The notes under the pieces are model-generated. The model was not told the DNA's origin. It did not search any database and was given only the letters and a program-made list of their open reading frames with translations. Made by a program: the position numbers and the translations under genes. 37,636 nucleotides of DNA from Acidobacteriota bacterium (lineage in GTDB: Bacteria > Acidobacteriota > Terriglobia > Terriglobales > SCQP01), in contig JAKAZV010000010.1 of the NCBI GenBank assembly GCA_021826505.1, forward strand, positions 1 through 37,636. The letters are read 5' to 3'. Below, piece by piece: positions 3,696 through 21,351 of the stretch; positions within the stretch are counted from its first letter, which is position 1, and each line of letters begins with the position of its first letter.

Positions 3696-6220
3696 GATTT
3701 AGGAATGCTGCTTTTTGCCGCAGATGCCGGCCGGGACAGCGGCGTTCGCACGCCCGCCGGGGTGACCGGCGCATGCGTCAGAGTCAAGGAGCGGCCAGCC
3801 GGGCTGATGAAATGCAAACTCCAGCCATTTGTCCGCGACCAGCCGCCCGTGCCGCGCCAGATACCGCGAGGCCATTCCGGGGTGGGCCGCTCATTTTCTG
3901 CTCTCGTCAAAATGGGAAGCCATTGCAATTGATGTAATTGAATTCGGCCTGGACTGGCATTGAAAGCCGCCGTGATTAATCGGGTGGGTGGTATTGGCAA
4001 TAGACTCTGGCCGGATTGCAAGCTCCAATGTGGCAGTTGCGGCGCGCGTATCACCGCCATGCCGCTCATATTCCAGCCCAGAGCAGGATCGCAGCCGCGA
4101 AGATCCGCGCGCAGCGGGCCTGACCAGTATCCGGACAGCCCGAATCCTGGCCACAGCGGGCGCAAGGGAAGACTGGCGGCCTGGGCCTGCCATTCACAAC
4201 CGGAGCGATTCCAGATCCCCGTGCCGGTCAGCACTCCCTGCTGGACAAACACCTGGGCGCTGGTCCAGTTCCAGCGATCGGGCTGCATCTCCACCGTCGC
4301 ACGAACCCGCAGCCGCGCGTGCCGCCAGTGCAGATCCCCCAGGTTCAAACTGGCGGTAATGCGATGCGGCGAAAATCGAGGCGGTTCAAAGCCGGAACCG
4401 CGCAGCCACGACTGCAATCCATGTCGGCGCCGCAATCCCAGCAAACTCGCCCATTGAGTCCAGTCGCCATGCGTGGAGTCAAGCCGCAGTCGCAGCGACC
4501 CGTCCGGATTTTTTCTCAGAAAAACACGCCAATTCAATTTTTGCAGCCGGCCCTGCAGGCGCATCCAGGCGGTTTGGGATTGATAGCGAACCTCTGCCTG
4601 TTGCAGAGGAATCGGCCGGATTCTGCCTGGCCAGAGCCAATACGCGGAGCGCAGCCGCACTCGCCCGCTCCATTGCGGATGGCGGAAGTTGCGCCAGCCA
4701 GCCCGCAGCCAGGCTTGAGCCCGAACGGTGCCCTGTAAGCCGCCGAGCCAGGCCGGTGGCAGCGTTAAAAGCCTCTGCAGGGCTCTCCACTGGCGGCTTG
4801 CCATGGCGGATGTCGCAAGATGAATTTGATAAATCCGGGGTGTCAGCCAGGCGCTGATGCGAGCCGAGGCTGGGGCATGGCCGGGCAGAGCGATTTTGAC
4901 TGCGGTCTGCGGCAGCCGCCAAACCTGAGAGTCTATCTGCCAAGTTACGGCCCGCGCGGCCTGGATTTTCATGTCCGGCGATGACCAGGCGGCATGGTAT
5001 AAGCGCAAGCTGCTGTTCTTTTGCCAGCGCGGAGCACGGCCTCGCCAATCGAGATCCCCCTCCAGCCAGCCCTGGGGGTGAAAGGACGACAGACCGGATT
5101 TGCAGATGGCGGCCAAAGGCAGCATATCCGCCAGCTTCACCTTCCGCAAACGCAAATTCCAGCGAGGGCGAGCATGGTGCAGCACATGCGCAATTCGGCC
5201 TGAAAGTTGCAGCCCCGGTATGGAATCCAGACTTGCCCGCTGGAGCGTGAACCGGTCCTGCCGGGTGCTGTAAGCAGCTTGAAACTGGATGCGCGGGCGC
5301 CAGTTGGTGGGCAGTAAATCCAGCCGGTGCAAGCTCTGGCCTGCGATTTGGCCCTGGATTTGAAAATCCTTGCCGTTGCCACTCAGCCGCAATTGCGCGT
5401 TGAACAGGCCGTCCAGTGATCCTTCATGCCCCAGCCAGAATGCGGAAAATGGCGCAATATATGCTTGTTCCAGTTGCGCCTGCAATAGAAACGGCAGGCG
5501 CCGCCAGGGCGCCGGGCCGGTTTGCCACCAGCCCTGAACCATGACCTGCCCTAAATCATGCAAATTTAGATCGGTGCGGGCCGGCACAAACCGCATGCTG
5601 AAGGTCCAGCGTCCGCCTGATTGCCCAATATCGGCATGAACCCGGCGCAGATAAAACGGCGTCTCCACGCCGTTCAAATTAAAATTAATCCGCCCCTGGC
5701 GTATTTTCAAAAAAGGAAAAGGCAGGCGGGCCGGCTTCCGGCGGGAAATGGCGCGTTGTTCCAGCGCGGGAATGCGGCGCGCGGAGCGGTCCACCAATGC
5801 GGCCAAATTCCAGCGCCGCTGGCGCGAACGCGCCAGATTTAAATTGGGGCGATCGAGCTCGATGCTGGAAAATTCAAACCGGCCCTTCCATAAGGCCGCC
5901 AATCGCAATGTTGCCGTCGCTTCCGCCGCGCGGATGATGGGCTGGTATCCATAAGCGGGATCATCGGCGACTTGCAGTTGATCCAACTCAAATCCCGGCC
6001 AGGGAATTAATACCAGATGCACCGATTGCGCCTGCACCGAACGGCCCAGCGCAGCCCGCAGCGCGGCCAGAATTCTGCCCCGGCCCTTGACTAAAGTAAA
6101 AAATGGAGCGGAAAAGCCCAGCAGAATGAGGGCGGTTATCACCCCCAGGCACCAGCGCCAAAACCGCCGGTGAGCCTTGACCGGCGCTGGGGTCCCGGCA
6201 TCTATGCTCTGCCCTGCCAT
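3692..6220 (-). CDS. AsmA-like envelope protein
   Basis: The 842-residue product has one N-terminal transmembrane segment (about residues 21-42), followed at once by an AsmA-type N-terminal region: a helix with GRxQAQSVHL-like sequence, then LELDQLQVADDPAY-type strands and FEFSSIELDRPNLNL. The rest is a long series of amphipathic beta strands rich in Trp, Arg and Gln with no catalytic motif. AsmA-family proteins are anchored in the inner membrane and reach across the periplasm; several act in phospholipid transport to the outer membrane. Length fits the larger family members. The start at 6220 has GGTAGG eight bases upstream and lies eight bases after the lepB stop; the 3' end overlaps the next gene by four bases. 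An operon lepB - asmA-like - unknown is likely. Confidence 0.75.
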   Translation of the reverse strand: MAGQSIDAGTPAPVKAHRRFWRWCLGVITALILLGFSAPFFTLVKGRGRILAALRAALGRSVQAQSVHLVLIPWPGFELDQLQVADDPAYGYQPIIRAAEATATLRLAALWKGRFEFSSIELDRPNLNLARSRQRRWNLAALVDRSARRIPALEQRAISRRKPARLPFPFLKIRQGRINFNLNGVETPFYLRRVHADIGQSGGRWTFSMRFVPARTDLNLHDLGQVMVQGWWQTGPAPWRRLPFLLQAQLEQAYIAPFSAFWLGHEGSLDGLFNAQLRLSGNGKDFQIQGQIAGQSLHRLDLLPTNWRPRIQFQAAYSTRQDRFTLQRASLDSIPGLQLSGRIAHVLHHARPRWNLRLRKVKLADMLPLAAICKSGLSSFHPQGWLEGDLDWRGRAPRWQKNSSLRLYHAAWSSPDMKIQAARAVTWQIDSQVWRLPQTAVKIALPGHAPASARISAWLTPRIYQIHLATSAMASRQWRALQRLLTLPPAWLGGLQGTVRAQAWLRAGWRNFRHPQWSGRVRLRSAYWLWPGRIRPIPLQQAEVRYQSQTAWMRLQGRLQKLNWRVFLRKNPDGSLRLRLDSTHGDWTQWASLLGLRRRHGLQSWLRGSGFEPPRFSPHRITASLNLGDLHWRHARLRVRATVEMQPDRWNWTSAQVFVQQGVLTGTGIWNRSGCEWQAQAASLPLRPLWPGFGLSGYWSGPLRADLRGCDPALGWNMSGMAVIRAPQLPHWSLQSGQSLLPIPPTRLITAAFNASPGRIQLHQLQWLPILTRAENERPTPEWPRGIWRGTGGWSRTNGWSLHFISPAGRSLTLTHAPVTPAGVRTPLSRPASAAKSSIPKS

Positions 6221-11908: not shown

Positions 11909-14299
11909 TTACTGGCGCAGGCCTTCGGCCATGGGAGCCGGCTGCACCGCCGTTTCCACCGGCTGCAGGGGAACCAGCGGGCCCTCCAGCGCCAGCCCCA
12001 GCACTTCGTCCATGTTGGTGACCAGGCTGATCTTCATGGCCCCGCGAATCGGCTCCGGTATTTCTGACAGATCCTTTTCATTGTCGCGCGGCAAGATCAG
12101 ATTGAGAATGCCCATGCGATGGGCGGCCATCAGCTTTTCTTTCACACCGCCGATGGGCAGCACCTTGCCGCGCAGCGTAATCTCGCCCGTCATGGCCAGA
12201 TCACGGCGCACCGGAATGCGGGTCAAGGCGCTGATGATGGCGGTGGCAATGGTAATGCCGGCCGAGGGTCCATCCTTGGGGATGGCGCCTTCGGGCACAT
12301 GCACATGGATATCCACATTGCGGTAAAAATCCCGCGGCAGGCCGAGCAAGTGGGCGCGGGAGCGTATATAGCTCATCGCGGCCTGGGCTGATTCCTGCAT
12401 GACGTCACCGAGCTTGCCGGTCAGCGTCAGCTTGCCCTTACCATCCATGAGCGTGACTTCGGTGGGCAGTATCTGGCCGCCCACTTCCGTCCAGGCCAGG
12501 CCGGTGGCCAGGCCAACTTCGCTTTGCTCCTCGTTGCGGGTATCGCGGTACTTGGGCACGCCCAGCATGTCCCGCACCACCTCCGGCGTGGCCTCCACAT
12601 GAACCTGACTGCCTTCGCTGACCACGCGGCGGGCCATCTTGCGGGCCAGATTGCCGATTTCGCGCTCCAGGCTCCGGACTCCCGCCTCGCGGGTATAGCT
12701 GCTGATCACCGTGCGCAGCGCGTCTTCATTCAGGGTGAGCTGCTCCGGACGCAGACCGCAGGCCTCGCGCTGCTTGGGCAGCAAAAAGCGGCGGGCGATT
12801 TCCAGCTTTTCCTGCTCCGTATATCCGCTCAGGCGGATAATCTCCATGCGGTCCTGCAAGGGCTGCGGAATGGTGTGCAGCACATTGGCGGTCGTGAGGA
12901 ACATGACCTGCGACAGGTCGTATTCCACATCAAGGTAATGATCCATGAAGGTGGCGTTTTGTTCGGGATCCAGCACTTCCAGCAGCGCCGATGCCGGATC
13001 GCCGCGAAAATCCACCCCCATTTTGTCCACTTCATCCAGCAGAAAAACCGGGTTGATGGCGCCCGCCCGCTTCATCATTTGCAGAATCTGTCCCGGCAGG
13101 GCGCCGATATAGGTGCGGCGATGGCCCCGGATTTCCGCCTCGTCGCGCACTCCGCCGAGGGACAGGCGCACGAATTTGCGGCCGGTGGCGCGCGCAATCG
13201 ACATGCCCAGCGAGGTTTTGCCCACGCCGGGAGGGCCCACGAAACACAGAATGGAGCCGCGCGGCGTCTTCACCAGCTGGCGCACCGCCAGAAATTCCAG
13301 AATCCGCTGCTTGACTGAATCCAGCCCATAATGATCTTCATTCAGGATATTTTCCGCCGCCTGAATATCGCGCAGTTCCCGCGTCCGCTTTTTCCACGGC
13401 ACGGCCAGCATCCAATCGAGATAGTTGCGCGAGACCGTGGATTCCGCCGACATGGGTGGCATCTGCTCCAGCCGCTTCAGCTCCTGCAGAGCTTTTTCCT
13501 TGGCCGAGGCGTTCATGCCGGCGGCTTCGATCTTACGCTTCAGCTCGTCGAGTTCGCTTTTTTCCCCGCGCCCCAACTCCTTCTGGATAGCCTTGATTTT
13601 TTCGTTCAGGTAATACTCTTTTTGCGCCCGTTCCATCTGGCGCTTCACCCGGCCCTGGATGGCCCGGTCCACGTTCAGCTTTTCGATTTCCAGGCTGATT
13701 TTTTCGGCCAGTTTTTCCAGCCGCGGGCCGGGCTCATAGAGCTCCAGCAGTTCCTGTTTTTCGGCTACCTTCAGCGGCAGATTGGCCGCGATGGTGTCGG
13801 CCAGGCGGCTGGCGTCTTCGCCCCGCACGGCATTGAGCATGGTTTCGTAATTGAGCGTCTGGTTCAGCTTGACGTACTGCTCGAACAGCCCGGTCACTTT
13901 CTGCGTCAGCGGCTCCAGTTGGGGCGTCATGGCCTCGCCGCGCTCCGGCGCCGGCCGCACCACCGCCTGGAATAAGCCTTCCTCCAGGGTCAGACTGACG
14001 ATGCGGGCCCGCTCCAGACCCTCCACCAGCACCCGGATATTGCCATCGGCCAGGCGCACGCTTTGCACAATGCCGGCGATCACGCCGACACTGTAAATCT
14101 CCTCCGGCTTGGGCTCATCCACGCTGGCGTCGTGCTGGGTGGCGAGAAAAATTTTCTTGTCCGCCGCCAGGGCATCTTCCAGTGCCCGCACCGAACTCTG
14201 GCGGCCCACCACAAAGGGGGTCATCATGTGCGGAAAAATGACCACATCCCGGATGGGCATCATGGGCAGGCGGCGGGTTTCCATTTTTTCTCGGCTCAT
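11909..14299 (-). CDS. lon: ATP-dependent protease Lon
   Basis: The 796-residue protein is a full-length LonA-type protease, which degrades misfolded and regulatory proteins in the cytoplasm. The N-terminal substrate domain ([17 protein letters not shown]) is followed by a coiled-coil region, an AAA+ module with Walker A GPPGVGKT (355-362) and Walker [10 protein letters not shown] (419-427), and the protease domain with the Ser679-Lys720 dyad in KDGPSAG and GGVKEKL. The start at 14299 is used; an in-frame ATG at 14284 preceded by GAGAAAA also fits the family N-terminus. It is the last gene of the tig-clpP-clpX-lon block, separated from clpX by 128 bases, so it may have its own promoter. No CIRCE-type heat-shock operator was seen. 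Confidence 0.97.
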
Positions 14300-14427
14300 A
14301 AAGCTGGCGGCGCTTCCTTCCGGCTATGCTTCATAGTAAACGATGACACGGATGGGCTCCGCGATTCAGACGGGAAAAAATGCCTGGCGCCTGAAGGGAT
14401 GGAATTTGCGGTCCGCGGCAGGGAGGG

Positions 14428-15711
14428 TTATCCGGCTTTTTCCAGGGTCTGGAGGGCAATATCGCGCTTTTTGACCATCTCGCGCGTGACCACGAACTCG
14501 CGCACGCGTTTCTGCGCCGGCAGGTGATACATCAGCTCCAGCATTAATTCTTCCAGAATCATGCGCAGGCCGCGGGCGCCCACTTTGCGCGCCAGCGCCT
14601 CGCTGGCGATTTCAGCCAGCGCGTCATCGTCGAAGCGAAGCTTGACATTTTCAAATTCAAACAGCTTTTGATATTGGCGCACCAGGGCATTCCGCGGCCG
14701 GGTCAGAATCTGAATCAGCGCCGCCCGGTCGAGGTCATCCAGCACGCCAATCACGGGCAAGCGGCCGATAAATTCGGGGATCAGTCCGGCCCGGATCAGA
14801 TCCTGCGGCTGCACATGGCTGAGCAGTTCGGTGTCGCGCAGGCCCTGGGCGGCGACCTGCTGGGCGTCGCCTTCTTCGGAGCGGAAGCCCACCGCGCGCC
14901 GTCCCAGCCGGCGGGCGATGGTTTTTTCCAACCCCACAAAAGCCCCGCCGCAGATGAACAGGATGTTGGTGGTATCCACCGGAGTGAATTCCTGATGCGG
15001 ATGCTTGCGTCCCCCCTGGGGCGGGACATGCGCCACCGTGCCTTCTAAAATCTTGAGCAGCGCCTGCTGCACCCCTTCCCCGCTGACATCCCGCGTAATC
15101 GAGGGGTTTTCGTCACGCTTGGAAATTTTGTCGATCTCGTCTATATAGATGATTCCCTGCTGGGCCCGCGCCACATCGCCGTCGGCCGCCTGCAGCAGCT
15201 TTAAAATCACATTCTCCACGTCTTCGCCCACATAGCCGGCTTCGGTCAGGGTCGTGGCGTCAGCCAGCGCGAAGGGGACATCCAGCATTTTGGCCAAGGT
15301 CTGGGCCAGCAGCGTCTTGCCCGTGCCGGTGGGACCGATGAGCAGAATATTGGATTTCTGCAGCTCGACTTCCGTGCCTCCGGCGGGCCGGCTGCGGTTC
15401 ATATGCAGCCGCTTGTAATGGTTATAGACGGCGACCGCCAGTTTGATTTTGGTGCGCTCCTGGCCAATGACGTATTCGTCGAGAAAGCTTTTGACTTCCT
15501 GCGGCTTGGGCAGTTGCGTCATGCCCGGCGCGGCCGGTTGCAGGCGGTCGTCTTCCAGAATCGAATTGCACACCGAGACGCACTCGTCGCAAATGTAGGC
15601 GCGCGGATATTCGTTAGGGCTGGAAATCAGCTTCGCCACCGCATCCTGGTTCTTATGACAGAACGAACACCGCAAGGTCTCATCACTGCCGTTTTTTGTG
15701 CGCACGCCCAT
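14428..15711 (-). CDS. clpX: ClpX, ATPase subunit of the ClpXP protease
   Basis: ClpX unfolds substrates and feeds them to ClpP. The 427-residue protein has the N-terminal zinc-binding domain (Cys15, Cys18, Cys41, Cys44), Walker A GPTGTGKT (126-133), the pore loop GYVGEDVEN (159-167), Walker B IYIDEIDK, and the C-terminal AAA+ lid with the [12 protein letters not shown] motif. Length is typical for the family. GAGGGG lies directly before the ATG at 15711. It follows clpP after 39 bases on the same strand, so the two subunits are very likely co-transcribed. Confidence 0.98.
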
Positions 15712-15750
15712 ACCCCTCGTTTTTTGCCGCCCCGCGGCCCGGCGGCCGGT

Positions 15751-16425
15751 CTATTTGTGTTTGAAAATGATTTCATCCACAATGCCGTAATCTTTCGCCT
15801 GCTGGGCATTCATGATGAAATCCCGCTCCACATCCCGCTCGATCTTGCTCAAGGCCTGCTTGGTATGCTGGGCCAGCACCTGATTGGTGATCTCGCGCAT
15901 CCGCAGAATTTCCTTGGCATGGATGTCAATATCGGTGGCCTGGCCGGAAAGCCCGCCCATCGAGGGCTGATGAATCAGCACCCGCGAATTGGGCAGCGCG
16001 AAACGCTTGCCCGGGGCCCCGGCGGCAAGCAGCAGCGCCGCCATGCTCGCCGCCTGGCCGATGCAGATGGTGGTCACGTCGGGTTTGATGAATTGCATGG
16101 TGTCGTAAATCGCCAGCCCCGCCGTAATTGAGCCGCCCGGACTGTTGATATAGAGCCATACATCTTTTTCCGGATCCTCGGCCGCCAGAAAAAGCAACTG
16201 CGCGGTCACCAGATTGGCAATATTATCGTCAATCGGTGTGCCGATAAAAATAATATTATCCCTCAACAGGCGGGAATAAATATCGTAGGCCCGTTCGCCC
16301 CGGTTGGTCTGTTCGACCACCATCGGAACCAGCGCGCCCTGGGGAGGATCCTCTTCCCCGCCGCCCCAGTACGGCGTCCGCGCTGCCAGCTTCCGGCGTG
16401 CAATGGATAAGTCTGAATGTTTCAT
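15751..16425 (-). CDS. clpP: ClpP, proteolytic subunit of the ClpXP protease
   Basis: The 224-residue serine peptidase forms the barrel that degrades substrates delivered by ClpX. Ser127 lies in [11 protein letters not shown] and His152 in [11 protein letters not shown]; the catalytic Asp is in the IERDVERD stretch (198-202). [16 protein letters not shown] is also typical. The start at 16425 is chosen because its ATG overlaps the trigger factor stop as ATGA and gives a normal length with a short propeptide-like leader; the frame extends upstream to 16578, but only in the shadow of tig. The overlap implies translational coupling of a chaperone to a protease subunit. Confidence 0.97.
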
Positions 16426-17810
16426 GATGCCATGGCGGGAGCGGCGGCTTGCAGCAGCCACTCCACGGTTTTTTCGTGGCGCAACGAGGCGCGCAGGCGG
16501 TCGAGCCCGCCGTTTTTTTCCAGCCGGGCGCGCAGCTCCGCCGGCGATTCCGCGCCGCGGGCGGCCAGCCGCTCGCATTCGGCCTGAATCTCCGCCTCGT
16601 CCACCTCCAGATGCTCCCGTTCCGCGATGCGATCCAGGATCAGCGCCGCTTTGACCTGGCCCCGCGCCGATTCATGCTGTTCCCGCAGCAGCTGGTTCCA
16701 GTCCAGGTTCATGCTCCGCGGATCCAGGCCTTGATGCATCAGCGAGCGCAAGCCGCGTTCCAGCCGCACTTCCGCCTGCTGCTCCACCAGCGCCTCGGGC
16801 ACCGGGAAATCATGCCGGGCCAGCAGTTGATCCACCACCTGCTGGCGGGCATTTTCTTCGGAGGCATGCCGGCGCGAATGCAATATATTGGCCCGAATGC
16901 GGTCACGCAATCCGGCAAGCGTCACCTCCGGCACCGGTGCTTCGCCCGCGGCATCGGCTTCGCCCGCCGCCGCGGGTTCCAGGGACCGGGCGAAATCATC
17001 GTTCAACTCCGGCAGCTTGAGCTGCTGGCGCGCCTGGATCTGCAGCTTGAAATGCATGCTTTTGCCCGCCACGCTCTGGTTCTCGTAATCGGCCGGATAT
17101 TGCAGGTCAAACTCACGCTCTTCGCCCACCCGGGCGCCGCTCAGAGCTTGCGTGAATTCCGGCAATGTCTCTTCATGGCCCACCCGCACACGCGCCTCCG
17201 GCACCGTCTCGCCTTCCGCTTCTCCGGCCACCCGGCGTTCATAGCGGATCACGGCGTAGTCACCGGCCGCCAGCGGCGTTTGCGGATCCAGATCTTCCCA
17301 TTCGCCCCGGCGCTGGCGCAGGTCTTCCAGCGCGGCATCCACATCCTGCTCACTCACCTCGGCCGTTTCGACTTTGATGGGAAGCTGGCGGTAATCGGCC
17401 AGCTCGAAACGCGGCAGCACTTCAAAGCGAGCCTGGAATTTCATCGGCTCGCCGTGCTGATAGCGGAGCTGGTCAATGGCGGGACGGGAAACCGGCTCCA
17501 TCTGATGCTGTTCGAAGCTGGAGCGTAAGTACGCCGGCACCATGGTCTGCACCACTTCATCCCAGATATGCTCTTCAAAGCGCCGGCGCACCATGGAAAG
17601 TGGCGCTTTCCCCGGGCGAAAGCCTGGAATGCGCGCCTTGCGCTGCAGGTCGCGGGCGATGCGGTCGTATTCCCGCTCCACTTCGGGGGCGGGGATTTCC
17701 ACCTCTAACGATTGCTGGCAATTGGGCGCCGCGGCCGGCGCCGGTTCAACCGGGGCGGGAACGGCGGATGCGGCCGTGGAATCGGCCGGATTGATTTCAG
17801 GACTTTCCAT
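16422..17810 (-). CDS. tig: trigger factor, ribosome-associated chaperone and prolyl isomerase
   Basis: Trigger factor meets nascent chains at the ribosome exit. The ribosome-docking signature GFRPGKAP is at residues 63-70, after the typical EVEREYDRI helix. A central FKBP-like prolyl-isomerase domain (about 165-265, containing GDYAVIRYE and [15 protein letters not shown]) and a helical C-terminal chaperone domain follow. The start at 17810 gives 462 residues and a 30-residue Ala/Pro-rich extension before the conserved [10 protein letters not shown]; a TTG at 17897 in the same frame would add 29 residues without family support. The 276 bases upstream hold no gene I can support and probably carry the promoter of the tig-clpP-clpX block. 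Confidence 0.95.
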
Positions 17811-18086
17811 TGCGCTTTGGATCTTTTCTCGCGGTCGCGGCCGGCCCTGCCTGGGACGTCCCTCGCCATCGTGGCTGCTGGCCTCGGGTTGAGCCAATAC
17901 CTGATTATGGATTCATTTACGAAAATTCCGCAAGCCACCCGACCCGGCAAGCGCCGCTTTGCGGTCCCGCATTGCATCAATCACGCATCGGCCGAGTCGC
18001 GGGCCCGGGGGAATAGTAATTATTTTTCTTTTTTCCCGACGAGGCCGAAGGCTGGAATGGCAACGCAAAAAAGCGGCCCCGCCTCT

Positions 18087-18653
18087 TTAGTGGCCCGCAG
18101 GTTGCCAGGTCATATCTACCTCAACCGGAATGGCGTTATGGATTTTGATCCATAAAAATTCCGGCGATTGAATCTGAAAATCCTTCAGGGTCGCGGGAAT
18201 CGTGCCCCGCAGCCGCAAGCCCGTTCCCTGCCGCGTAACCGTAAACGGCACCCGGTGAAATATATGCGTATGGCCGGCGAATTGAATTTGCAGATTGACC
18301 CGCAGCTTGCCGGGATGCAATTCCGTCGCGGGCAGGCTCGTCCGCACCACGACCATGGGATACTGCCCGCCCCGCACCGCTTGCAGCATGTGCAGATCGC
18401 GGTTGCTGTCGCCGGAATGAAATGAATTCACCGGCGCGGCGGCTAAAAACTGGCAGGCGCCTTTTTGGCATACGCCTTTGCCCCGGGCGGCGTGGCTGAC
18501 GCCATACACCTGATGGAAGGGATCGGAGACATGATAGGTCAGGGTCGAGGCAGTCAGCACCCAGGCGGCGGGCGTGGACGCGGCGGCTATCGTTGCGGAC
18601 ATGGCCAGGCAGACCAGCAGCCCGGTATGAATTTTTAAGCTTTTGGTTCTCAT
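18087..18653 (-). CDS. YceI-like periplasmic protein
   Basis: The 188-residue protein has a Sec-type signal peptide (about residues 1-24, ending ATIAAAS) and a YceI-type lipocalin-like barrel. It starts WVLTASTLTYHVSDPFHQVYG, then has the SNRDLHMLQAVRG segment, FAGHTH and a C-terminal VEVDMTWQ strand. YceI proteins bind long polyisoprenoid or quinone-like ligands in the periplasm. Two Cys residues flank GKGVCQKGACQF, which is not general in the family and may form a disulfide. GGAAAG lies upstream of the ATG, inside the end of the preceding gene, only three bases from its stop. Coupling to that haem-b-like membrane protein parallels the E. coli pair yceJ-yceI (cytochrome b561 plus YceI). Confidence 0.8.
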   Translation of the reverse strand: MRTKSLKIHTGLLVCLAMSATIAAASTPAAWVLTASTLTYHVSDPFHQVYGVSHAARGKGVCQKGACQFLAAAPVNSFHSGDSNRDLHMLQAVRGGQYPMVVVRTSLPATELHPGKLRVNLQIQFAGHTHIFHRVPFTVTRQGTGLRLRGTIPATLKDFQIQSPEFLWIKIHNAIPVEVDMTWQPAGH

Positions 18654-18656
18654 GCT

Positions 18657-19721
18657 TTACTTTCCATTTCCGCGGCGGACCAGGGCATCAACCGGCCGCA
18701 CCGTCTCATGGCCCACCCCCAAAAAGCCCAGCACGCCGTGGGATGTTCTGGAAAACAGATTCGATACCCGTTGTGTGGAATTCGAAAACAAATGCGGCTT
18801 GGCCACCGCCAGCCAGGCCGCAACATAGGCGCCCAGCGTCACCATGGCCACCAGCCCGTGCAGTTTGGCAATGCCGTGCACGCGCTCGCCGCGCGCCCGC
18901 TGGGCATAGGCCATTTCTCCCAGAATCGGGGTCAGAATCATGCCCGGGCCGTGAATCCAGGCCAGTGCCTCATGCACTTTAATGGGTCCGCGCGTCTTCA
19001 CGCCCTTGATGCGCGGCGCGAAGATCGCGTAATAAGCCGTGGCGCTATACATGCCGAAGGCCGTCAGCCCCAGAATGGCGTGAATATTGCGGCCGGTGGA
19101 AGATGTTTTACTCGGCCGTCCGCCGGCAAAGCCGCCGGCGATCACCGTTGCGGCCAGCGGGATCATCGTCAGCAGGCCCAGCTTCTGGTGGATTTGCAGC
19201 ATGCGGGATCGGCGGTTGAGCCGCGCCTGCAGTTTCCGGCTGCCTTGGGTTTGCTGCGGGGAAAAGCCCAGATTCTGCAGCGACAGTTGCGGAATCTGAG
19301 CCGGCGCGGGAACTGGCGCGGGGGAAGTGGATTCCGGCGGTCCATTCAAGGCCAGATTCACTGTCTGCCGCGCGCCGGACTGAATAGTAACCACGCTCGC
19401 CGGAGCATGCCAATTCCCCGCGCGAGCCGTAATGCGATACTGTCCCGGCGGCAGCGCGGGCGCATCGTAATGTCCCCGGGCATTGGCGGTAACCTGCGTA
19501 GTTTGCCCATTAGCCAGACTTGTGATCGTAATGACGGCGCTGGGCACATTCCTGCCCGCAGCATTAATCACGGTACCGGAAATAATTCCTCCTTCGGCCT
19601 GGGCGGAAAGACTCAGCGGGCTGAATAGCAGGCCGATCATGACCAGACCCGCGCAAGCGCGCCGGGCCATGGGGGTCAGCCAAACGGTTTCAATCGGATT
19701 GCGCACGAAATTTTTCGCCAT
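18657..19721 (-). CDS. membrane protein: carboxypeptidase-regulatory domain fused to a cytochrome b561-like four-helix module
   Basis: The 354-residue protein has an N-terminal signal sequence (about 18-41), a carboxypeptidase-regulatory-like beta domain (about 45-127: IISGTVINAAGRNVPSAVI, PPGQYRITARAG), a Pro-rich linker, and a membrane part with about four helices (roughly 179-198, 213-233, 251-271, 285-306). His178, His214, His257 and His282/His288 lie at or near helix ends, a pattern compatible with two b haems as in b561-type electron carriers. No known b561 signature was matched exactly, so haem binding is inferred. It is followed within three bases by the YceI-like gene. An in-frame ATG at 19670 is an alternative start. 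Confidence 0.65.
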   Translation of the reverse strand: MAKNFVRNPIETVWLTPMARRACAGLVMIGLLFSPLSLSAQAEGGIISGTVINAAGRNVPSAVITITSLANGQTTQVTANARGHYDAPALPPGQYRITARAGNWHAPASVVTIQSGARQTVNLALNGPPESTSPAPVPAPAQIPQLSLQNLGFSPQQTQGSRKLQARLNRRSRMLQIHQKLGLLTMIPLAATVIAGGFAGGRPSKTSSTGRNIHAILGLTAFGMYSATAYYAIFAPRIKGVKTRGPIKVHEALAWIHGPGMILTPILGEMAYAQRARGERVHGIAKLHGLVAMVTLGAYVAAWLAVAKPHLFSNSTQRVSNLFSRTSHGVLGFLGVGHETVRPVDALVRRGNGK

Positions 19722-19775: not shown

Positions 19776-21020
19776 CTAGTTTGGCGTCCATTGCCGCACG
19801 GCCAGCACGGCATTCAGGCCGCCGAAGGCAAAGGAATTGGAGAGGGCCGCCCGCAACTCGCGCGGCCGCGCCCGGTTGGGCGTCACATCCAGATTGCATT
19901 CCGGATCAGGCGTCGTGTAATGCGCGGTGGGAGGCGCCTGTTGCGCCGCCAGCGCGGCCAGCACCGCCGCCAGTTCAATCGCGCCGCTGGCGCCCATGGC
20001 ATGGCCGTGCATGGACTTTGTCGAGCTGATCGAAACCTTTTCCGCCGCCGGGCCCAGCGCCTCGCGAATCGCCGCTATCTCGGTCACATCGTTCAAGCGC
20101 GTGGCCGTGCCATGGGCATTGATGTAGTCCACTTCATCCGGCGCCAGACCGGCCCGCTGCATTGCTTGCCGCATGGCCTGGGCCGCGCCGCGCGCGCTCG
20201 GCTGCGTGATATGGCCGGCATCGGCGGAAGCGCCGTAACCGGCCAGCTCGGCGATGATCGCGGCGCCGCGCGCCCGCGCCGCCGCCGCCCGCTCCAGCAC
20301 AAAAATCGCCGCGCCTTCGGCCACCACCATGCCCGCGCGATCGGCGCTGAAGGGCCGGCAGGCCGCGGCCGCGTTCTCCCCGGCCGGGGCCAGCACCCGC
20401 ATTCCCTCCCAGGCTTTGAACACGCCCCGGGTAAGGGGCGCATCCGTGCCGCCAGCCAGCACCATGTCCAGATCCCCGGCGCGCAGATAGCGCCAGGCCT
20501 CGCCCAGGGCATGGGCCGCGGAAGCGCAGGCGCTCGAAAGCGTAAAGCAGGCGCCTTGCGCGCCCCAGCGCATGCTGATCTGTGAGCTGGCCGCGTTGGC
20601 CATGGCCCGGGGAATCGAAAACGGATGCAGGCGGGCGGCTCTTTCGCCATACAACTGCCGCAGCGCCCGCTCCTGGCTCTCAATGCCGGGCATGCCCGAG
20701 CCGGTAATCACGCCCACCCGGGCGCCGTCATAATAGCGGCTGATCTCCTCCAGCCCCGCCATCGCCAGCGCACTTGCGGCGCAGGCCAGCGCCAGTTGCA
20801 CGCCGCGATCCAGCAGCTCGACTTCTTTGCCGAAGTGTTCTTCCGGCGCAAAACCCGTGATTTCGCCCGCCGGAAAACGCACTCCTTCGGCCGCCAGCCG
20901 CGCTGACAGCCCGATGCCGCTTTCGCCCGCCAGCAGCCGCCGCGCAAAGCTGGCGCGGTCCCGCCCCAGGCAGTTTATGGTTTCGTATCCGGTAATGACA
21001 ACAGCGTCGGCGGGCGGCAT
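19776..21020 (-). CDS. beta-ketoacyl-ACP synthase, FabF type
   Basis: The 414-residue enzyme condenses malonyl-ACP with an acyl thioester. The FabF active-site set is complete: Cys165 in SSACASAAHAL, His303 in NAHGTATRLND, Lys335 and His340 in STKSMHGHAMGASG. Length and motif spacing match FabF closely. It is preceded by an acyl carrier protein gene ending 19 bases upstream. No fabD, fabG, fabH or fabZ is nearby, so it may be a housekeeping FabF or a dedicated condensing enzyme of the NodE kind for a special acyl chain; the sequence alone does not decide. The b561-like gene starts 54 bases downstream on the same strand. Confidence 0.92.
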   Translation of the reverse strand: MPPADAVVITGYETINCLGRDRASFARRLLAGESGIGLSARLAAEGVRFPAGEITGFAPEEHFGKEVELLDRGVQLALACAASALAMAGLEEISRYYDGARVGVITGSGMPGIESQERALRQLYGERAARLHPFSIPRAMANAASSQISMRWGAQGACFTLSSACASAAHALGEAWRYLRAGDLDMVLAGGTDAPLTRGVFKAWEGMRVLAPAGENAAAACRPFSADRAGMVVAEGAAIFVLERAAAARARGAAIIAELAGYGASADAGHITQPSARGAAQAMRQAMQRAGLAPDEVDYINAHGTATRLNDVTEIAAIREALGPAAEKVSISSTKSMHGHAMGASGAIELAAVLAALAAQQAPPTAHYTTPDPECNLDVTPNRARPRELRAALSNSFAFGGLNAVLAVRQWTPN

Positions 21021-21039
21021 AGCGGCGCGTGACTGAGCT

Positions 21040-21351
21040 TTATGCGGTCTCGGAAGTGCTGGCGAGGGGTGCGCTGCCGCCGGCCGCCGCTTCCAGTTGC
21101 CGGCGTAAAAGCGTGACCACTTGGTCCACGCTGCCCAGTGTGCGCGCGGTTTCGTCGGGAATGTTCAGGTTGTATTGCTCCTCAAAGGCGAAAACCAGAT
21201 TTACGCCATCGAGCGAATCAATTTTCAGTTCCTGAAAAGTGGAATCAGGGCGGATGCGTTCGGCCGGAATGTGCTGCTCGCGCGCGATCACCGCGATCAC
21301 TTCCTGCGTCAACTGGTCTGGCACTCCAGCAAATCCCTCCTGCTTCATCAT
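21040..21351 (-). CDS. acyl carrier protein
   Basis: The 103-residue protein has the phosphopantetheine-attachment motif DSLD with Ser46, preceded by DSTFQELKI and followed by GVNLVFAFEEQYNLNIPDE, the recognition helix of carrier proteins. The core ends near residue 85; the remaining 15-20 residues are an Ala/Gly/Ser tail longer than in standard AcpP (about 78 residues). It carries the growing acyl chain for the ketosynthase gene that follows 19 bases downstream. TAGGA lies about 12 bases before the double ATG. Whether it is the main fatty-acid ACP or a dedicated carrier cannot be told from the window. Confidence 0.93.
   Translation of the reverse strand: MMKQEGFAGVPDQLTQEVIAVIAREQHIPAERIRPDSTFQELKIDSLDGVNLVFAFEEQYNLNIPDETARTLGSVDQVVTLLRRQLEAAAGGSAPLASTSETA

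Follow-up and report, generated by a model that had tools for sequence, protein, structure and literature searches.

There is as yet no settled role for YceI lipocalins; at the locus described here, a membrane protein with an exported domain is encoded directly upstream of one. The window, i.e. the whole stretch of DNA that was analysed, comprises 37,636 nt of an Acidobacteriota bacterium (GCA_021826505.1, contig JAKAZV010000010.1), and the gene pair occupies positions 18087-19721 on its minus strand. Both reading frames were found where an earlier reading of the sequence alone had placed them. Gene A (18660..19721, minus strand; 354 aa) encodes a predicted b561-like membrane cytochrome with an exported domain, and its frame extends from 19721 to 18657, including the stop codon (18657-18659). 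After a gap of 3 nt between this stop and the next ATG (18654..18656), gene B (18090..18653, minus strand; 188 aa) encodes an exported YceI-type lipocalin in a frame of 18653-18087, with its stop codon at 18087-18089. The analysis described below points to a conserved two-gene unit of soil Acidobacteria, consisting of a probable haem cytochrome and a secreted, probably lipid-binding YceI protein. Directly downstream of the pair, at 11909-17897 on the minus strand, lie what we take to be lon-, clpX-, clpP- and trigger-factor-like frames. Upstream of gene A, at 19776-21351 on the same strand, presumed ketosynthase-like and acyl-carrier-like frames apparently form a stand-alone pair.

The architecture of gene A was derived from an AlphaFold2 model built on a homolog alignment of 60 rows (A1), with a mean pLDDT of 79; two of the 61 scan loci with broken frames (L060 and L061) were left out of this alignment and of alignment A3. 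All features lie on the minus strand. A predicted signal peptide covers residues 1-41 (19599..19721), with a hydrophobic helix at 17-33 and a putative cleavage site near SAQA; in this region, A40 is kept in 61 and Q41 in 59 of 73 homologs. It is followed by a carboxypeptidase-regulatory beta-sandwich at residues 45-125 (19347..19589; pLDDT about 95), modelled confidently over 45-120, and a Pro-rich linker at residues 126-161 (19239..19346), with low pLDDT around 126-150. The four-helix b561-like core spans residues 162-307 (18801..19238), with helices at 162-197, 208-233, 245-276 and 283-307. The C-terminal tail (residues 308-354; 18660..18800), which few relatives have, adds a further helix at 316-333.

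The exported carboxypeptidase-regulatory domain named by the sequence-only reading was confirmed by Pfam, in which PF13620 (CarboxypepD_reg) matched residues 47-125 with 58.6 bits, and by the fold, which aligned with carboxypeptidase N (2nsm; Z 12.7, rmsd 1.3, 79 residues aligned; VIA). Pfam gave no DOMON match up to an E value of 10. A domain profile detected the domain in 45 of 60 homologs; the remaining 15 carry different N-terminal stretches, mostly Pro-rich. On the core tree these absences are scattered and most deep branches have the domain, a distribution that fits its repeated loss. Neither of the two histidines in the window's domain is conserved in homologs. Because it is absent from a quarter of the homologs (15/60) and its histidines vary, the domain was considered accessory, probably an optional periplasmic module serving as spacer or docking site. 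A sensory role, as once suggested for it, or a redox role thus finds no support. The fusion, noted earlier as unusual, is not fixed, and the idea of its being essential to the system was rejected, since pairing with YceI persists in the homologs without the domain.

For the membrane core, PF03188 (cytochrome b561) scored marginally above its cut-off on gene A (25.5 bits against 23), and at E up to 1 it matched just 11 of the 60 homologs. Five histidines (H178, H214, H250, H257 and H288) are invariant in 60/60 aligned homologs, and H282 is kept in 58/60. This includes all four residues, His178, His214, His257 and His288, on whose conservation the proposal of a haem protein had been staked. Cytochromes b561 have four core helices, in which histidines 1 and 3 hold the non-cytoplasmic haem and histidines 2 and 4 the cytoplasmic haem (PMC10691727, available text). 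In gene A, H178, H214, H250 and H288 provide one invariant ligand-like histidine per core helix, at intervals of 36/36/38. The corresponding intervals in human Dcytb are 36/34/39, calculated from histidines 50, 86, 120 and 159, whose positions were derived from residue labels in the available text of PMC10691727. With H257 as third ligand, the intervals of gene A become 36/43/31. Because the spacing with H250 is nearer that of Dcytb, H250 is the likelier third ligand, and H257, located two turns deeper in the same helix, represents an extra conserved histidine. The haem ligands are likely H178, H214, H250 and H288, so that three of the four originally named stand and H257 is replaced. Together, the PF03188 match, the invariant histidine on every helix and the near-Dcytb spacing bear out a b561-like core; on this sequence evidence, gene A is a probable haem-containing electron carrier of the eukaryotic (CYB561) type.

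Gene B matched PF04264 (YceI) with an E value of 0.00046 and 21.0 bits, under the cut-off of 23.7. At E up to 1, the same profile matched 51 of the 54 rows of the gene B alignment (A2, from which loci with a YceI gene cut by the contig end were left out), the best at 8.3e-8. The AlphaFold2 model generated from A2 is a barrel with a mean pLDDT of 85, and its best nine VIA rows were all YceI structures (Z 13.5 to 17.9), led by 3q34 (Z 17.9, rmsd 2.7, 156 residues aligned) and including BcnB (Z 15.5), BcnA (14.7) and E. coli YceI (14.2). Judged from this model, gene B is an exported YceI lipocalin. The delivery of quinone or isoprenoid suggested for it earlier would be plausible.

The branch to which gene B belongs has features of its own. 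A CX4C motif from Cys62 to Cys67 (18453..18470, minus strand) is invariant in 54/54 rows of A2 and in 66/66 members of another homolog set, accompanied by several conserved histidines. The ordinary YceI proteins of relatives lack this cysteine pair: in the 25 that were checked, no cysteine was present. These 25 remained from 30 loci read after removal of three that gave no motif and two wrong frames (L150 and L168). Ordinary YceI genes occur in 59 of the 60 relatives, and in the window's genome the ordinary gene adjoins what is presumably an adenylosuccinate-lyase-like frame. According to the available text of PMC9113575, BcnA and its homologs are without cysteines, in contrast to the invariant pair of the gene B branch. 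In the simplest reading of this conservation, Cys62 and Cys67 would form a periplasmic disulfide.

The association of the two genes was then assessed by their recurrence. In the scan of genome contigs, the core was followed directly downstream by a B-type YceI gene at 60 of 61 loci, so the pairing is not due to chance. The exception (L019:5968-7135) is a second core copy, in the same MAG as L009; its contig ends after a further 259 nt, which contain no YceI gene. The coupling to yceI was equally evident in 60 related genomes, 15 of which have the core, each with an adjacent B-type YceI gene (15/15). B-type YceI was present in 16 of the 60 relatives, namely the 15 core-bearing genomes and G020, where a YceI gene of the Cys-pair branch stands alone, with no cytochrome core (L137:1501-2043). 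At class level, the core was identified in 51 of 399 genomes, at 52 places, and was paired at 29/29 loci fetched; a draw across the phylum gave matches in 9 of 396 genomes, one of them (G242) false, and as the scan, relative, class and phylum sets overlap, these counts are not independent. The false case, a weak A3 match (L101), falls in what we take to be an aldo/keto reductase-like frame and was dropped. Over 149 genomes of the phylum, PF03188 gave two sub-threshold matches, L103 and L104; the latter lies in a frame of 388 aa, next to one with many CXXCH motifs, and was rejected as a member of this family. In the 60 relatives, no PF01292 match lay within 13 kb of any PF04264 match.

The trees of the core and of its YceI partner are correlated (mirror-tree r 0.66 over 52 pairs; best of 1000 shuffles 0.31), a value not counted as proof because shared species history also contributes to it. 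A typical pair was also found on a short contig (L031, PLKS01000066.1) of a MAG titled Opitutaceae. Within the phylum of that genome the core occurred in 1 of 194 genomes, the one being that genome itself, and this pair is possibly contamination or the result of transfer.

The sequence-only reading had suggested that the pair could be a rewired version of E. coli yceJ-yceI. Gene A, however, gave no Pfam match to PF01292, the family to which we take LcoA and YceJ to belong, even at E up to 10; it matches PF03188 instead and its relatives often carry an extra exported domain, unlike LcoA/YceJ. Since its cytochrome is of another family, strict membership in the LcoA-BcnA system is without support. 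That system (YceJ-YceI) is the closest known one: a b561 gene likewise lies directly upstream of a secreted YceI gene as a conserved unit, described in the available text of PMC9113575 for Proteobacteria, whereas the gene A-gene B pair is found in Acidobacteriota. According to the same text, LcoA-BcnA shields Burkholderia from lipid peroxyl radicals, peroxidation of membrane lipids is increased in bcnA and lcoA mutants, and LcoA is suggested to re-reduce the quinone in BcnA, which then quenches the peroxyl radicals (PMC9113575). By analogy, this logic of quinone re-reduction most likely applies to gene A and gene B too, and the pair likely works in a similar manner.

In the following scheme, the binding of haem, the orientation, the ligand, the direction of electron flow and the antioxidant function of the pair are inferred. 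Gene A would be an inner-membrane di-haem cytochrome with a CYB561-type core. Because its signal peptide places the N-terminus outside, H178 and H250 would hold the haem on the periplasmic side, and H214 and H288 that on the cytoplasmic side. The gene B barrel would carry a hydrophobic ligand, probably quinone or another isoprenoid. Electrons would most likely cross gene A to the periplasmic face, which bears a conserved cationic patch, and re-reduce this ligand, which in turn would quench peroxyl radicals or other envelope oxidants. We give even credence to such a two-gene envelope redox unit, with di-haem A and lipocalin B acting as an antioxidant as proposed for LcoA-BcnA.

The cationic patch bears on this scheme in more than one way. 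In the orientation adopted here, the periplasmic loop before H250 has a mean net charge of +4.0, against +1.05 and +1.42 for the cytoplasmic loops. These charges oppose the positive-inside rule, and the orientation therefore depends on the signal peptide; a hydrophobic N-terminal stretch was detected in 45 of 60 A proteins by a rough script for which start codons are uncertain. Either the loop serves as a functional patch that receives an anion, a lipid head group or gene B, or its charge is a warning about the orientation. A different use of the patch would be that of a superoxide or oxidant scavenger, in which it collects superoxide or some other anion, the electrons travel inwards to the quinone pool, and YceI supplies or stores quinone. 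The comparison here is with the E. coli superoxide oxidase CybB (SOO), presumably of a Pfam family other than that of gene A. CybB, too, is a small membrane protein with four helices, two haems and a positively charged face towards the periplasm, and the available text of PMC11869295 describes no exported extra domain in it, whereas gene A has one. The basic loop before H250 resembles the superoxide antenna cluster described there, but the quinone-site residues H87, H151 and H158 of SOO could not be mapped onto the gene A core (PMC11869295, available text). The conserved H282 and the basic residue 280, both close to the cytoplasmic haem, could form a quinone site. Given that PF01292 does not match gene A and that its orientation is unproven, we consider this scavenger unlikely.

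The comparison with eukaryotic cytochromes b561 (Dcytb, AtCYB561; PF03188) bears on a second alternative, a trans-membrane reductase of periplasmic ferric iron, copper or an ascorbate-like compound, with YceI binding the substrate or metal. These proteins share with gene A the four-helix core, one ligand-like histidine per helix and near-identical spacing, but sequence similarity is very low, several residues in contact with haem or ascorbate differ, and the first and sixth helices of single-domain b561 were not seen as such in gene A. Small residues at H3+4, H3+18 and H4+4 are common to Dcytb and the gene A family, and the basic residue at H2-3 is kept in 54 of 60 homologs. The basic residues of Dcytb at H1+20, H2-7 and H4-7 and its Gln at H3+14 are replaced in the gene A family; the contact residues checked belong to Dcytb-like members rather than to all b561 (PMC10691727, available text). 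A reductase is favoured by the CYB561-like core, by the several conserved histidines and the cysteine pair of the lipocalin branch, and by a basic residue at H3-2 in 59/60 homologs, which recalls the KXXXXKXH motif of TScytb-like proteins, a proposed binding site for substrates outside the cytoplasm (PMC10691727, available text). Against it, the metal-binding histidine of Dcytb at H2+22 is Pro in 60/60 homologs, and the recurring neighbours, named only in part, included no recognisable gene for iron uptake. We therefore regard this reductase as quite improbable. An arrangement similar to that of gene A is found in CYBDOM, in which an exported domain also precedes a TM1-TM4 b561 core with the N-terminus outside (PMC10691727, available text). 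That domain is DOMON, whereas gene A carries a carboxypeptidase-regulatory domain that is dispensable in its family.

Structural comparison of the membrane part in VIA gave plant b561 (4o7g; Z 9.7, rmsd 4.0, 141 residues aligned) and human b561 (5zle; Z 9.5, rmsd 4.5, 145 residues aligned). Unrelated helical bundles score as high, e.g. 8w6f with Z 10.3, so the b561 match is compatible with the assignment and does not constitute proof. Sequence searches of solved structures with A1, A2 and A3 returned matches of carboxypeptidase-regulatory type or none, and no b561.

Further evidence was obtained from a second phylum. A tblastn search of plasmids with gene B returned one record, a plasmid of the Bacteroidota member Fibrella sp. 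(CP155472.1, E 2e-4); the core itself found nothing there. The gene 9 nt upstream of the Fibrella YceI gene, annotated as hypothetical, proved to be a remote core homolog (hhalign probability 97.4, E 1.6e-11), the two genes lying at 4254-5513 of the plasmid (L180:1712-2971). Evidence from this phylum amounts to one record, found via gene B, in which the cytochrome turned up without being searched for. H99, H135, H173, H180 and H204 of the Fibrella protein align with H178, H214, H250, H257 and H288, with a last interval of 31 against 38 in gene A; it has no Pfam match and no carboxypeptidase-regulatory domain. The Fibrella YceI belongs to the gene B branch (hhalign probability 98.7, E 1.5e-16) and has no cysteine. 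DUF5686, Rieske, Dps, catalase and metal-efflux genes were observed around the pair. With the Fibrella protein as query, only itself was found among plasmids, and a scan of viral contigs gave no relative. A YceI gene on a Hymenobacter plasmid was rejected as a further pair, as a transposase adjoins it and there is no cytochrome. A last alternative, in which the core is not a cytochrome, its histidines form a metal site or belong to a structural bundle, and YceI handles envelope lipids only, could draw on the weak family score of most members, the non-discriminating fold match and the six rather than four conserved histidines, but one histidine per helix at near-b561 spacing in 60/60 homologs and the Bacteroidota relative is hard to explain otherwise, making this reading very unlikely.

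Returning to the di-haem cytochrome with its lipocalin, we lean modestly towards gene A representing an unnamed CYB561-type di-haem family whose members serve a distinct branch of YceI as dedicated partners, at least in Acidobacteriota and Bacteroidota. No account of the acidobacterial b561-YceI pair was found in the open-licence literature, and it has the look of a so far unrecorded form of the pair that protects the envelope from oxidative damage in other bacteria. If gene A does represent such a family, YceI proteins would have been coupled to two separate four-helix di-haem cytochromes, that of PF01292 in Proteobacteria and the gene A type in the present pair. This would speak for a general YceI function in which a ligand borne by the lipocalin is reduced from the membrane. 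The retention of YceI beside a second cytochrome of different build in other phyla would constitute strong comparative evidence for a partnership with transmembrane electron carriers. For proteins filed as hypothetical or merely as carboxypeptidase-regulatory, the pair also provides both a name and a test.

No third partner gene recurs at most loci. At 11 of the 49 loci with at least 900 nt after gene B, an OmpR-type response regulator was identified downstream, joined at ten of them by a HAMP histidine kinase (e.g. L016:7072-9259 and L023:7502-9614, with nine other loci). This arrangement fits envelope-stress control.
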